Under the pieces are notes generated by a model. It was not told the origin of the DNA. It ran no database searches and worked only from the letters and a program-made list of their open reading frames with translations. Below, one piece after another: positions 34,718 to 52,486 of a stretch of DNA of 64,000 nt (its first letter is position 1; each line of letters opens with the position of its first letter). The position numbers and the translations under genes are program-made. The DNA comes from a candidate division NC10 bacterium CSP1-5 (GTDB taxonomy: Bacteria; Methylomirabilota; Methylomirabilia; Methylomirabilales; CSP1-5): the NCBI GenBank assembly GCA_001443495.1, contig LDXR01000007.1:62001-126000 (forward strand). Direction: 5' to 3'.

Positions 34718-36150
34718 GAGCTCAGCTCATCTGCAAGTATTGGACCGACGGCGCCGATCAAAAGCCCCACCTCGTCCTCGCGGACAGTTCGCATATCGAG
34801 GAGAACCTTTTCCCCTTTGATGCGCGCCACCACAGCCGGCTCTGCTTCCCTGAGCAGGGCCTCCAGTCGATGCGGGGACACCTCGGACCTCTGAAGCGCG
34901 ACGCAATACGTGGGGAGGCCCTGGGCAGGAAGCGCCCCCCCTCCCACCTCAGACCACTGCTCCTCGACGGTCACGCGGACCGAGGGATGTGCCCGCGCCT
35001 GCAAGCCCGCGCGCACCCGCTCGGCGCGCTGCTCGATCTCGTGGAGCGGGCAGGCGATCATGGCCAGGGCGGGAATGGCACCGAGACCCTTCTCCCCTTC
35101 TAGGTAGGCCCGGAGGGTAGCCTCGAGGGCCGCGAGGGAGAGTTTGTCGATGCGCACCGCTCGCGCCAGCGGGTTTTTCCGGAGGCGCTCGATCATCAGC
35201 TTTTTCCCTACGATGAGCCCCGCCTGGGGCCCTCCGAGGAGCTTGTCTCCGCTGAACGCGATCAGATCCACCTCACTCCGAAGGGTCTCCTGGACGGTGG
35301 GCTCCCCCTTGAGGCCGAATGGGGCGAGATCGGCGATGGCGCCGCTGCCCATGTCGATCATCACCGGGAGGGCCCGGCGCCGGCCCAGCGCCACCAGGTC
35401 CGCGAGGGGGACGTCGCTGGTAAAGCCGAGAATCCGAAAGTTGCTGGGGTGCACCTTCAGGAGCAGGGCTGTCCTCTCCCCGATCGCATCTTCGTAGTCT
35501 TTGAGGCGGGTCCGGTTCGTGGTGCCCACCTCCCTGAGAACCGCCCCCGCCTTTCGCATGACGTCCGGGATTCGGAAGGAGTCTCCGATCTCGATCAACT
35601 CCCCTCGGGAGACCACCACCTCGCGGCCTTCGGCGAGCGTATTGATGCTCAGCAGGACGGCGGCAGCGTTGTTGTTTACCGCAAGGGCCCCCTCGGCTCC
35701 CGTGAGGCGGGTGAGAAGGCCCTGTATATGCCCTTGCCGAGAGCCTCTGGCGCCTCTGGGGAGATCGAATTCTAAGGTCGAGTAGTGCTGCGCGACCTCG
35801 TGGAGGCGGGCCAGCGCCTCAGGAGACAGAGGGGCCCGGCCGAGGTTCGTATGGAGGATGACCCCGGTGGCGTTGATCACCCGGCGCAGGCTTGGGCGGG
35901 CCAGGTGCAGGGTCTTGCGGCACACCTGCGCGAGGAGTGTGGAAAGATCGGGGACGAAAGTCTCGATCCCCTCGCGGAGGAGGGCTAGAATCTTTTGTCG
36001 GCGCTCCTCGAGGGTCTCCCGGACCGCCTCGATCACCGTCCACCGGGGATACGCCTCGAGGAGTTTCTGGATGACCGGCTCCTGGAGGAGTTCGTCGACC
36101 GACGGAATCTGGCGGAGGAGGAGGCCCGCCTGGTGCTCTGGAATAGCCAT
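34714..36150 (-). CDS. selA: L-seryl-tRNA(Sec) selenium transferase
   Basis: A 478-residue PLP enzyme converting Ser-tRNA(Sec) to selenocysteinyl-tRNA(Sec) with selenophosphate. It has the family N-terminal domain (LLRQIPSVDELLQEP, YPRWTVIEAVRETLE), the NATGVILHTNLGRAPLS signature, NNNAAAVLL, SRGELIEIGDSFRIPD, and the PLP lysine in SGDKLLGGPQAG. Its presence shows the cell makes selenocysteine, directly relevant to the in-frame UGA genes at 28833, 45257 and 46501. selB, selC and selD are not in the window. It starts at ATG 36150 and leads the tmk-holB-metG run. Confidence 0.96.
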   Translation of the reverse strand: MAIPEHQAGLLLRQIPSVDELLQEPVIQKLLEAYPRWTVIEAVRETLEERRQKILALLREGIETFVPDLSTLLAQVCRKTLHLARPSLRRVINATGVILHTNLGRAPLSPEALARLHEVAQHYSTLEFDLPRGARGSRQGHIQGLLTRLTGAEGALAVNNNAAAVLLSINTLAEGREVVVSRGELIEIGDSFRIPDVMRKAGAVLREVGTTNRTRLKDYEDAIGERTALLLKVHPSNFRILGFTSDVPLADLVALGRRRALPVMIDMGSGAIADLAPFGLKGEPTVQETLRSEVDLIAFSGDKLLGGPQAGLIVGKKLMIERLRKNPLARAVRIDKLSLAALEATLRAYLEGEKGLGAIPALAMIACPLHEIEQRAERVRAGLQARAHPSVRVTVEEQWSEVGGGALPAQGLPTYCVALQRSEVSPHRLEALLREAEPAVVARIKGEKVLLDMRTVREDEVGLLIGAVGPILADELSS

Positions 36151-45256: not shown

Positions 45257-46231
45257 CTACGACGCGCTGGCGCTCATGCCCATCGGAGACGCGGGACTGC
45301 CCCGGGACTCGACGGCAAAGCCCCGTTCGCGCCAGGCGTCAAAGCCACCGGCGAGTGGTCGGACGCGCGTGATCCCTCGCCGCCGTAACAGAAGCGCCAC
45401 CCGGGCGCTCGAGGCCTCGCTGGGTCACGTGCAGTACAGGACGAGCTCGCGGTTGCGCGGGATTTCCTGGTGGCGCTGCTCGAGTTGATCCGGCGAGAGC
45501 TGGATGGCGCCGGGAATGGTCGCTGGCTCTGCCTCGAAGTCGAGCGAGTGACGCAGATCCACGACCACCAGATCTTCGCCGGCATCGAGCTTGCGTTTGA
45601 GTTCCTCCGGGGTGATCCGGTCGATCCGCAGCCGGCGCACAAACCGACGCCGCTGCACATACTTCCAGCCGATGTACCCCGTCAGGGCGACCACGAGAAT
45701 CAATACGAGCCGGGCGCCGAGCTCCGCAGCGTGGGCTGCAACCCGCTCGATTTGATCACTAAAGACGAAGCCGAGCCCCGTATACGCGCCCACCCAAATC
45801 AATGCCCCCACCCCGTCGAAGAATAGAAAGCGCGGGAGCCGCATGCGGAAAATCCCCGCCAGGGGCGGTGCCACCGTGCTCAATCCAGGGACGAACTTAG
45901 CCACGATCAGCGAGCGGGCGCCATGCCGGACGAAGAAATCTTCCGTCCGGCGAACGCATGAGTCCGGCTCGAGGGCGATCCGGCAGAGGAGCTGCAAGAC
46001 CCTGCTGCCGCGTCGGCGACCCAGCTCGTACCAGATCGTGTCGGCGAGCAGCGTCGCCAGGGACCCCACGCCGATGGCGAGGGCGAAGCTTAATTGCTCG
46101 GCGCCGGCAAGGGCTCCGGCGGCGAGCATCAATGGGGCGGCGGGGATGGGCAAACCGACCTGCTCGACGAACACCACCGCGAACAGGACCGAGTACCCGT
46201 GCCGGATCAGGAACTCCAGTGCCTCACTCAT
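45257..46231 (-). CDS. DedA membrane protein fused to rhodanese, candidate selenoprotein (in-frame UGA at Sec269)
   Basis: Residues 1-205: DedA/VTT-type membrane protein (FVEQVGLPIPAAPLML, FLVRHG-like FFVRHGARSLIVAKFVPGLS). Residues 220-324: a rhodanese domain (LVVVDLRHSLDFEAEPATIP). The active-site loop reads LVLYCT, UGA (45425-45427), then PSEASSARVALLLRRRGITR and RPLAGGFDAWRERGF, ending at TAG 45257. Homologous DedA-rhodanese fusions have YCTCP there, so UGA replaces the second Cys and gives a C-x-U motif. Everything after the UGA is standard rhodanese in the same frame, and a SECIS-like hairpin follows. Default calling stops at 268 residues and loses the sulfurtransferase C-terminal half. 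It is the last gene of the MarR-led run. Confidence 0.85.
45393..45409 (-). promoter_or_regulatory. SECIS-like hairpin of the DedA-rhodanese gene
   Basis: On the mRNA, AGCGCC pairs with GGCGCU around the loop CGGGU, 22-26 nt after the UGA; a G-U pair can extend the stem. Confidence 0.65.
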
Positions 46232-46500: not shown

Positions 46501-46965
46501 CTACTCTTCGACCACCGCGCCGTCCCATTCGATCGCGATGCCCCGCTGCACGGACTGCGAGGCCGGACAGCCTTTCTCGTGGATCTCGATCGCACGCAGG
46601 GCCTCCTCACGCTTTCCCTGGGGAACCTTCACGTGATAGTGGACCTTGATCCGCGTGATCAGAGGTTTGCCGTCTACATTCTCGATGAAGCCCTCCACCT
46701 CCGAGGACAACTTGTCCGGCTGTGTCGGAATCTTGCGTGCCGCTAGCGCCCCGGCCAGCGTGCCGGTCATTCAGCCGGCCACCGCGGCGATGATGTGGTC
46801 GAGGGTCGTGGGCACGTCCTCCGGCGGCTCCACCCCGTAGAATTTCTTGATCCCCCCGTGGACGCCGTAGCGGACCGGCTCGGGAAAGTTCTCGATGTAG
46901 GCCCGGCGGAGGGGACCCTTATCCTTGATGATTTTCACCTTGGAGACGTGAATCAACTCAGCCAT
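46501..46965 (-). CDS. OsmC family protein, candidate selenoprotein (in-frame UGA at Sec65)
   Basis: ATG 46965 (AAGGAGGAG upstream) opens 64 residues ending TTLDHIIAAVAG. Then comes UGA (46771-46773), then MTGTLAGALAARKIP and 74 further residues to TAG 46501, 154 in all, normal for OsmC. Family members read ...L.AALAGCLTGTL...: the UGA is exactly the peroxidatic Cys. The resolving Cys (EKGCPASQSV) is intact. OsmC/Ohr proteins are thiol peroxidases for organic hydroperoxides; a Sec would raise reactivity. A nine-pair SECIS-like hairpin follows. Naive annotation gives two abutting small ORFs. It belongs to the MarR-led run of stress genes. Confidence 0.88.
46741..46760 (-). promoter_or_regulatory. 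SECIS-like hairpin of the OsmC gene
   Basis: On the mRNA, CGCUGGC pairs with GCUAGCG (one G-U) around loop CGGGGC, 18-23 nt after the UGA, nearly the spacing of the E. coli fdhF SECIS. Two more pairs form below a bulged A. Confidence 0.7.
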
Positions 46966-47078: not shown

Positions 47079-47942
47079 CTAAACTGCACCATGCTTCTTA
47101 AGCCACTCCTGCAAGCGCTTCCATCCATCTTCGGCCGGTTCCCTCCGGTAGCTGGGCCGGTAGTCGGCGTAGAAGGCGTGGGGTGCTCCGGGGTAGACGA
47201 TGATCTCTGACGGACTCCCCGCCGACTTCAGGGTCTTGCGCATCTCCTCGACGGTATCGAGCGGGATGCCCGGATCATCGCCTCCGTACAGGCCGAGGAC
47301 GGGGGCCTTGAGCGCGCCGACGACGTCGATCGGATACTGGGGCTGCAGTTCCGTGCGATTGCCGGTGAGCCGGCCGTACCAGGCCACGCCGGCTTTGAGC
47401 TGGGGGTTGTGGGCGGCATACAGCCAGACGATCCTCCCGCCCCAGCAGAACCCGGTGATGCCGAGCTTCGCGATGTTCCCTTTGCCGCCCGCCTTGGCCC
47501 ACGCGACGGTGGCGTCGAGGTCCGCCATCACCTGCGCGTCGGGGACCTTCGAGACCACTTTCGCGAAAATCTCCTTGCTCTCGGATATTCCCGACACATC
47601 CCCCTGGCGGGCGAAGAGCTCGGGGGAGACAGCGAAGTAACCCATCTTCGCAAATCGGCGACAGATATCCTTGATGTGTTCGTGAACGCCGAATATTTCC
47701 TGCACGACCAGGACCACGGGGAACGCAGTTCCGGTGGCCGGCATCGCCCGGTAGACCGGGATCTGGCCATCGGCGGTCGGAATCTTCACCTCACCCGCGA
47801 TCAACCCGCTGGTATCGGTGGTGATCGTCTGTGCTGATACAGGGCGTACGGCGAGCGCGAAGCCGACAGCCAGTGTGGTCATGACAAACTCTCGCCGTGT
47901 GAACTCCGTCTTGGGCATCAGGCTGCGTAGTTCCTCGTCCAA
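47079..47942 (-). CDS. Exported dienelactone hydrolase family protein
   Basis: A 287-residue alpha/beta hydrolase. N-terminal twin-arginine-type signal ([20 protein letters not shown], cleavage near VSA), then [20 protein letters not shown], nucleophile Cys in GITGFCWGG, Asp in YGGDDPGIP, and His in [16 protein letters not shown]. Dienelactone hydrolases open lactone rings; many exported ones have unknown substrates. TTG 47942 has a strong AAAGGAGG; ATG 47918 is the alternative. Fourth from last in the MarR-led run, 113 bases before OsmC. Confidence 0.88.
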
Positions 47943-47990
47943 ACCCTGATTCCTCCTTTCCCATCCGGTGTTGGGGGTCAAGGGCGGGAC

Positions 47991-50302: not shown

Positions 50303-50917
50303 TCATCGAGCCTTTCCATGGACGAGGGGCGAGGGTTGGCCCCACTGACCGCTGAAGACAAAGGAGTCCAGGGGCTTGCGGGTGCGCGGGGCCAGCTCGC
50401 GCTCACGCAGGTCATCTGGCAACCGGCCCGGATCGTCGAGATAGCCGATCGCCATCACCGCGACCGGCTCGTAGCCCTCGGGGATCCCGTACACCTCCCG
50501 CGCCCTGTCCACGTGGAATCCGGCCATCTGGTGGACGAAGAGGCCGAGGGCCATCCCCTGGATTACCAAGTTTTCGACCGCCAGACCGACGTCATGAAAG
50601 GCGTGTCGATTCGGCTTCCGGTTTCTCTCAAAGGCCAGCCTGGCCACCGAGAGCATGAGGACCGGCGCATGCTGGGCCCATCGGACGTTGCCTTCGACGA
50701 GACAACTCAGCAAGCGCTCGTATTCACCTGCATGCCCCTTGGTGGCGACGATGAAGCTCCACGGTTGCTCGTTGTAGGAGGACGGCGCCCATCGAGCGGC
50801 CTCCAGAAGGCTGCGGAGCTTGTCCGGTTCAACCACGCGGTCGGCGAAGGCGCGCGGGCTCCAGCGCTCCCGCAGCAGCCCGTGAATCTCGTGTGTAGTC
50901 TCGGCGAGTTTCTGCAT
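50303..50917 (-). CDS. Nitroreductase family FMN enzyme
   Basis: A 204-residue flavoprotein. RERWSPRAFADRVVEPDKL and the FMN-binding AARWAPSSYNEQPWSFIVA at the N-terminus; DVGLAVENLVIQGMALGL in the middle; the C-terminal IPEGYEPVAVMAIGYLD. These enzymes reduce nitro groups, quinones or enones with NAD(P)H as homodimers. It is a natural member of an electrophile-response operon. ATG 50917 lies 28 bases after the Dps-like gene. Confidence 0.92.
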   Translation of the reverse strand: MQKLAETTHEIHGLLRERWSPRAFADRVVEPDKLRSLLEAARWAPSSYNEQPWSFIVATKGHAGEYERLLSCLVEGNVRWAQHAPVLMLSVARLAFERNRKPNRHAFHDVGLAVENLVIQGMALGLFVHQMAGFHVDRAREVYGIPEGYEPVAVMAIGYLDDPGRLPDDLRERELAPRTRKPLDSFVFSGQWGQPSPLVHGKAR

Positions 50918-51273: not shown

Positions 51274-51972
51274 CTACGGTAGGTCCAGGAAGATCAGCGC
51301 CGCGGCTTCCGTGGCCTGGAGCGCCAGCTCCGGTTCGTCGGCAATTCGGGCCTGGTCCCCTGCCGCGAGGGGGGTACCGTTCACCGTGAGGCTACCGGTA
51401 ATCACAAAGAGGTAAGCCTTGCGACTCGGTCGACTCTTGTGGGTCACTTCCTGTCCCGCCCGCAAGCTCGACACGTAGATGACTGCGTCTTGGTCGATGG
51501 TCAGTGTTTCCGCAACGTTGCCCCCAGACACAACCGGCAGGAGCTTTCCGCCTCGCTCTTCGACCGTGAAGCGACGCTGCTCCCATTGAGGGGGAAGGCC
51601 CTTCGTCCGGGGCGTGATCCAGAGCTGAAGCAGGTGAACGGGACGCTCTGTGGAGTGGTTATACTCGGCGTGGACGATCCCGGTGCCGGCGGACATCCCC
51701 TGGACCTCGCCGGCACGGATGACCCCGCGGTTTCCCTGGTTATCCTGGTGTTCCAGCTCTCCATCCAGAACATAGGTGACGATCTCCATATCGCGGTGCG
51801 GGTGGGCACCGAATCCCTGCCCTGGCTGGATGATGTCGTCGTTGACGACACGGAGCGCCCCCCAGTTCATGTTGGCGGGGTCGTAGTAATCATCAAAGGA
51901 GAAGTGCCAGTAGGTGGAGAGCCACCCGAGGTCTCTGTGGTGCCGCTCTTTGGATTGGATGATTTTGATCAC
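51274..51972 (-). CDS. Pirin family protein (YhhW-like quercetinase type)
   Basis: A 232-residue bicupin. N-terminal WHFSFDDYYDPANMNWGALR; metal-site residues in GFGAHPHRDMEIVTYVL (His, His) and GTGIVHAEYNHS (His, Glu), GELEHQDNQGNRGVIRAGEV between. The C-terminal cupin is typical of YhhW. Some pirins have quercetin 2,3-dioxygenase activity; others act as redox sensors. It follows marR by 43 bases and is a common first target of MarR regulators. ATG 51972. Confidence 0.93.
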   Translation of the reverse strand: MIKIIQSKERHHRDLGWLSTYWHFSFDDYYDPANMNWGALRVVNDDIIQPGQGFGAHPHRDMEIVTYVLDGELEHQDNQGNRGVIRAGEVQGMSAGTGIVHAEYNHSTERPVHLLQLWITPRTKGLPPQWEQRRFTVEERGGKLLPVVSGGNVAETLTIDQDAVIYVSSLRAGQEVTHKSRPSRKAYLFVITGSLTVNGTPLAAGDQARIADEPELALQATEAAALIFLDLP

Positions 51973-52015: not shown

Positions 52016-52486
52016 TCAAGCGGTCTTCTCGCGCGCGAGCTCCAGGAGTTCGACCAGCGCCTGGAGCCGCTTCGTCCCCAGGTGCCCCAGGTGCTGCGTG
52101 TGCAGATGAACGATCGGAGCGTCGAGGCGCCTCAGGAGGCGGAGCCCCCCTTCCGTGATCCGAACCATGACGACCCTCCGATCCTTCCTGTTGCGCTCCC
52201 GCGCGATGAGTCCGCGGGCCTCGAGCCGATCAAGGAGGCGGGTGACGTCGGGGTCACGGGTGATCAGGCGTTCGCACACTTCCCGGCAGGCGAGCCCGTG
52301 GGGACCGGCGCCCCGCAGGATGCGGAGCACGTTGTACTGGGGGTGTGAAAGTCCGACCGACTTCAGGACCTTTGCCTGGCCGCGCAACAACGCATCGGTG
52401 GTCCGCAAGAGGTTCAGAAACGCCTCTTGCTCCAGCGTCCGGAAGGGCTTCTTTTGTTTGATCTCTGCCTGCAGCCGTCCAGCCAT
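52016..52486 (-). CDS. MarR family transcriptional regulator
   Basis: A 156-residue winged-helix repressor. LLRGQAKVLKSVGLSHPQYN, recognition helix region CREVCERLITRDPDVTRLLD, wing RNRKDRRVVMVRITEGG, C-terminal dimer helix. It leads a ten-gene minus-strand run ending at 45257 and is preceded by a strong promoter with a palindrome between -35 and -10, so autorepression is likely. The inducer is unknown; targets (pirin, nitroreductase, OsmC) suggest electrophiles or hydroperoxides. ATG 52486. Confidence 0.93.
   Translation of the reverse strand: MAGRLQAEIKQKKPFRTLEQEAFLNLLRTTDALLRGQAKVLKSVGLSHPQYNVLRILRGAGPHGLACREVCERLITRDPDVTRLLDRLEARGLIARERNRKDRRVVMVRITEGGLRLLRRLDAPIVHLHTQHLGHLGTKRLQALVELLELAREKTA

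Follow-up and report, generated by a model that had tools for sequence, protein, structure and literature searches.

A predicted selenoprotein that fuses a DedA membrane domain to a CxU rhodanese in a Methylomirabilota genome

The window analyzed here, a stretch of 64,000 nucleotides from the candidate division NC10 bacterium CSP1-5, an inhabitant of soil and groundwater, contains at positions 45257-46231 of the minus strand a gene that fuses a DedA (VTT) domain to a rhodanese domain and encodes 324 residues when an in-frame UGA is read through. An AAGGAGG-like site lies just 5' of the ATG start (46231-46229), the TGA is at 45427-45425, and the frame ends with a TAG at 45259-45257; our rereading of the minus strand returned exactly the frame, TGA position and TAG end of the original prediction. 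Around the TGA the frame is ...LVLYCT-U-PSEASSARVALLLRRRG...RPLAGGFDAWRERGF..., so that the UGA (45425-45427, codon 269) sits in the rhodanese active-site loop (Y-C267-T-U269-P), two residues past the canonical rhodanese cysteine. Pfam places the VTT domain (PF09335) at residues 29-154, with 52.1 bits against a cut-off of 33.9, and the rhodanese domain (PF00581) at residues 207-302, with 52.5 bits against 22.2. The DedA/VTT membrane half covers residues 1 to about 201 (45629-46231, minus strand) and includes Cys83 and Cys92. The rhodanese half, residues about 202-309 (45305-45628, minus strand), is probably cytoplasmic, as suggested by a basic stretch after the last transmembrane helix.

The pooled and deduplicated homologues comprise 74 distinct genes with TGA at codon 269 and 32 with Cys; the named GTDB loci belong to the Methylomirabilota/Rokubacteria, Acidobacteriota, Nitrospirota, Verrucomicrobiota, and others. 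In every one of the 74 Sec genes the frame continues past the TGA without a stop as far as the GGxxxW motif. Sixty related genomes yielded about 23 full-length homologues, every one with TGA at the same codon, and 95 genomes of the phylum yielded about 50 full-length copies, with TGA in all but two. Conservation of the UGA in relatives had been proposed as a check on the gene, and it bears out: the codon is UGA or Cys, and the only exceptions are those two paralogues, which carry Ser (L177, G068:C534) or Glu (L178, G063:C480), each also lack one or both DedA cysteines, and are both degenerate. At the cut-off used, no match to the fusion was obtained in six sister genomes from its own genus, so that this check draws on the order, the class, and other phyla. 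Nitrospira copies carry Cys at the Sec codon. Starred branches of the tree force at least 4 changes between Sec and Cys, and parsimony gives 7; one such interchange is seen where L077 (Cys) stands beside L137 (Sec). Viral contigs were also searched for relatives of the fusion, and none were found.

Downstream of the UGA is a candidate bSECIS hairpin, AGCGCC-CGGGU-GGCGCU (45393-45409, minus strand), with arms at 45409-45404 and 45398-45393. Its loop (45403-45399) occupies nucleotides 22-26 after the UGA, within the 16-37 nt of the published model, and the element satisfies the published bSECIS rules (PMC13188914); the 6-bp G/C stem with loop CGGGU reported earlier is thus present as described. 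The general form across homologues is AGCGCC-CG[G/U]G[U/C]-GGCGCU, with a 6-bp stem and a spacing of 21 nt from the UGA. An Rfam scan of the window gave no match. The folding energy is not significant against shuffles (z = +1.09) and is unremarkable for GC-rich DNA, so we dropped stability as evidence for Sec; since energy alone lends nothing, the case for the hairpin is built on where it lies, the sequence of its loop, covariation, and its difference from the Cys genes. When stand-alone rhodaneses are included in the set, both partners have changed in three of the six stem pairs, and the score for covariation, 0.352 (0.134 when shuffled), was reached in 0 of 500 shuffles and lies above all slid controls. 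Sec genes keep the hairpin almost unchanged, whereas it is eroded in Cys genes: all six pairs of the stem are present in 70/74 of the former versus 12/32 of the latter, and the loop Arg codon is CGG, CGT or AGG in 74/74 versus 15/32, the Cys genes often having CGC or AGA instead.

UGA is normally a stop codon and the genome is a draft assembly, which would favor a sequencing error or a genuine stop, with a DedA protein truncated at that point. However, the same UGA is present in 74 genes from many assemblies, all with a rhodanese-like open frame beyond it, Cys alternates with it at the codon, and the hairpin is conserved; we find a stop or an error hardly credible. Gene-calling software that treats UGA as a stop will annotate such genes as truncated DedA proteins.

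The host genome encodes the means to decode such a codon: selA (600 bits), selB (379 bits), a tRNA-Sec with anticodon UCA, and selD, which itself contains a UGA. The selA gene, for selenocysteine synthase, lies in the same window (34753-36117, minus strand, converted from G000:C7:96753-98117), about 9 kb from the fusion gene. Across genomes, SelB is present in 19/20 with the Sec form versus 7/17 with the Cys form (Fisher p = 0.0007, a value that is overstated, the homologues being related). The one Sec-form genome in which selB was not detected (L079) is possibly an incomplete MAG, and selB was absent from the Nitrospirota genomes tested. Taken with the homologue codons, the hairpin, and the tree, this distribution strongly supports the C-x-U motif originally proposed beside the sulfur-carrying Cys267. 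We put the probability that codon 269 is decoded as Sec, by SelB acting through the hairpin just 3' of the codon, making this a true selenoprotein gene, at roughly 0.88, a figure that refers to selenoprotein identity and not to mechanism. Many relatives also appear to read the UGA of their DedA-rhodanese genes as Sec.

The DedA half shares the DedA/VTT fold with the COG0586 DedA proteins (YghB, YqjA, UptA), which are held to be undecaprenyl-phosphate (UndP) flippases (PMC10127716). It could likewise be such a flippase, with the redox state of its CxU rhodanese acting as the switch, and the residue equivalent to YghB E39 (E23 here) is indeed E or D in 104/104 readable sequences. Unlike the COG0586 flippases, however, the fusion lacks Asp51 and Arg136 and has Lys in place of Arg130: the D51 position is occupied in nearly all homologues by residues such as Ala, Ile, Val or Leu, R130 is Lys in 102/102, and R136 is Ser, Asn, Thr or Ala in 102/102, Cys forms included. 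With three of the four key residues (E39, D51, R130 and R136) changed, transport by this half is uncertain, and the earlier suggestion that the fusion couples membrane transport to persulfide or selenide chemistry is a conjecture. The UptA model scored 57 bits on the protein against a cut-off of 250. Because the replaced arginines are reported to be essential in UndP flippases (PMC10127716), we do not class the DedA half as one, and a redox-gated flippase seems to us improbable.

Copies with a CxU or CxC loop keep the Cys83/Cys92 (C-x8-C) pair of the DedA half, while four degenerate paralogues (L177, L178, L054, and L191) have lost one or both of these cysteines along with the loop or domain. 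The pair is missing from the proteobacterial fusion P0006. One could view it as a relay that serves the CxU loop specifically; with P0006 lacking the pair and stand-alone DedAs (L018-L021) having it as well, we mention this as a lead only and do not claim it.

In the AlphaFold2 model of the fusion (pLDDT 85.3, pTM 0.75), one half is helical and the other is a rhodanese. The matches listed by a PDB fold search are all rhodaneses and are uninformative on the DedA half; the rhodanese half matches solved structures with Z up to 17.9, among them GlpE and the rhodaneses of persulfide dioxygenase and CoA-persulfide reductase fusions. Alignment with known rhodaneses, for example that of the BpPRF fusion, places Cys267 at their catalytic Cys, and Sec269 would be a second redox residue beside it. 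The protein may be a plain selenorhodanese, in which Cys267 transfers sulfur from thiosulfate or persulfide and Sec269 only tunes its reactivity or passes selenium or sulfur on, SelD being one conceivable recipient. The canonical catalytic Cys, the fold with its GlpE and persulfide-enzyme matches, and the label thiosulfate sulfurtransferase on proteobacterial relatives (annotation only) are all consistent with this; yet ordinary rhodaneses transfer sulfur without a second chalcogen residue at +2, and the +2 Cys is retained in Nitrospira and proteobacterial relatives. Since the Nitrospirota genomes tested lack SelB, this retention also indicates that the pair is not tied to a supply of selenium. 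We consider plain transfer possible but doubtful, and tentatively favor fast persulfide or thiol reductase activity of the CxU domain over simple sulfur transfer. Our belief is spread over the reductase, plain transfer, and gated flipping in falling order, with modest shares for the first two, a small one for the third, and the remainder left to something else.

For the reductase, a mechanism can be sketched from the residue positions alone. Cys267 would accept sulfane sulfur or an oxidizing equivalent, forming a persulfide or sulfenate, and Sec269 would resolve the loaded cysteine through a Cys-S-Se-Sec (selenenylsulfide) bond, to be reduced and recycled by the cellular thiol system. The DedA half could bring this chemistry to the membrane, where the partner might be a lipid-soluble or exported sulfur species, a quinone, or a hydroperoxide. 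The fusion probably serves in thiol or persulfide redox defense. Its conserved Sec at +2 suggests a redox-active residue.

Upstream of the fusion on the same strand are, by increasing distance, genes for an OsmC-family protein (46501-46965), a dienelactone hydrolase family protein (47079-47981), an NADP oxidoreductase, a zinc alcohol/aldehyde reductase, a methyltransferase, a nitroreductase family protein (50303-50917), pirin (51274-51972), and a MarR-family regulator (52016-52486). The nitroreductase recurs in 19 other DedA-rhodanese loci, often directly upstream; the MarR regulator is found in 15 other loci and pirin in 7. An ortholog of the dienelactone hydrolase adjoins the DedA-rhodanese gene in G029, as does pirin, and on Xanthomonas and P. 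aeruginosa plasmids pirin also occurs close to Cys-form fusions. Together, the MarR, pirin, nitroreductase, dienelactone hydrolase, and OsmC neighbors suggest an electrophile- or hydroperoxide-stress cluster. The OsmC gene (PF02566, 50 bits) has an in-frame TGA of its own (AAVAG-U-MTGTLAG) and is probably a second selenoprotein, of an ordinary kind, OsmC-like selenoproteins being already known (PMC13188914); no match to it was found beside the DedA-rhodanese gene in other loci.

Both parts of the fusion have known counterparts. The predicted selenoprotein domain NF041203 (rhodanese_LYCAU, "rhodanese-like form 3, CxU"; PMC13188914, Table 1) likewise has Sec two residues past the canonical Cys, but it is a domain of 126 positions, whereas here the CxU rhodanese follows an integral-membrane DedA part as the C-terminal half of the protein. 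NF041203 scored 88.3 bits on the fusion, below its cut-off of 115 yet best of all NCBIfam models. DedA-rhodanese fusions with Cys are also known (PMC10127716, PMC12893004), and the role of their rhodanese has been called unclear (PMC10127716). Those annotated "DedA family protein/thiosulfate sulfurtransferase GlpE", such as PA1209 of P. aeruginosa (PMC12893004), have the same architecture with Cys for Sec; a P. aeruginosa plasmid homologue is 40% identical and has a YCACP loop and the C-x8-C pair. TsoB, a rhodanese/DsbD fusion-like selenoprotein (NF045694), similarly joins a selenorhodanese to a membrane redox protein, but with a UxxxxU motif and DsbD rather than DedA, and its model matched the fusion weakly (19.8 bits vs 805). 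No DedA protein is listed in the 2026 table of 119 prokaryotic selenoprotein families, and a full-text search of the open-access literature found no description of a DedA selenoprotein. The suggestion that the combination had not been described therefore stands for the joining, while each half was known separately (NF041203, PMC13188914; PMC10127716, PMC12893004): we could not find the union of these two known parts, DedA and a CxU selenorhodanese, described. With it, the selenoproteome of the Methylomirabilota and Acidobacteriota would gain a membrane branch fused to DedA, complete with natural Sec/Cys pairs.

Other architectures with a selenorhodanese were observed in the same searches. Three loci (L238, L239, and L245, in G035, G045, and G050) encode a secreted trypsin/HtrA-like serine protease followed by a transmembrane helix and a CxU selenorhodanese, with the same hairpin; the search gave many further matches of similar frame length with one TGA. 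This fusion looks like an undescribed selenoprotein architecture. At another locus (L242, G094:C81), the CxU selenorhodanese is fused to an apparent class III nucleotide cyclase, and L058 may be of the same type; the protease and cyclase partners were named by eye from their sequences.

Stand-alone rhodaneses with two UGAs and a U-T-U loop (FYUTUPEEKSAARVAA) are encoded at seven loci (L059-L064 and L244, in G005, G001, G003, G006, G002, G008, and G018). Their hosts are same-genus sister genomes without a match to the DedA fusion, and their hairpin shows compensatory changes. UxU rhodaneses are absent from the 2026 selenoprotein inventory, and the LuxC/LuxE-like neighbors of the U-T-U genes offer no functional clue. 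Speculatively, and with rather low expectation, we suggest that the CxU/UxU module with its hairpin may have been shuffled in the Methylomirabilota onto unrelated outputs (DedA, the HtrA-like protease, and the cyclase), where it would use Sec to sense the persulfide or peroxide state of the cytoplasm and so gate its partner, with DedA no longer serving UndP. One of the genomes with a U-T-U rhodanese encodes another rhodanese (L240, G005:C52:14805-15107), which has a U-G-U loop (FYUGUPEDASAAG).
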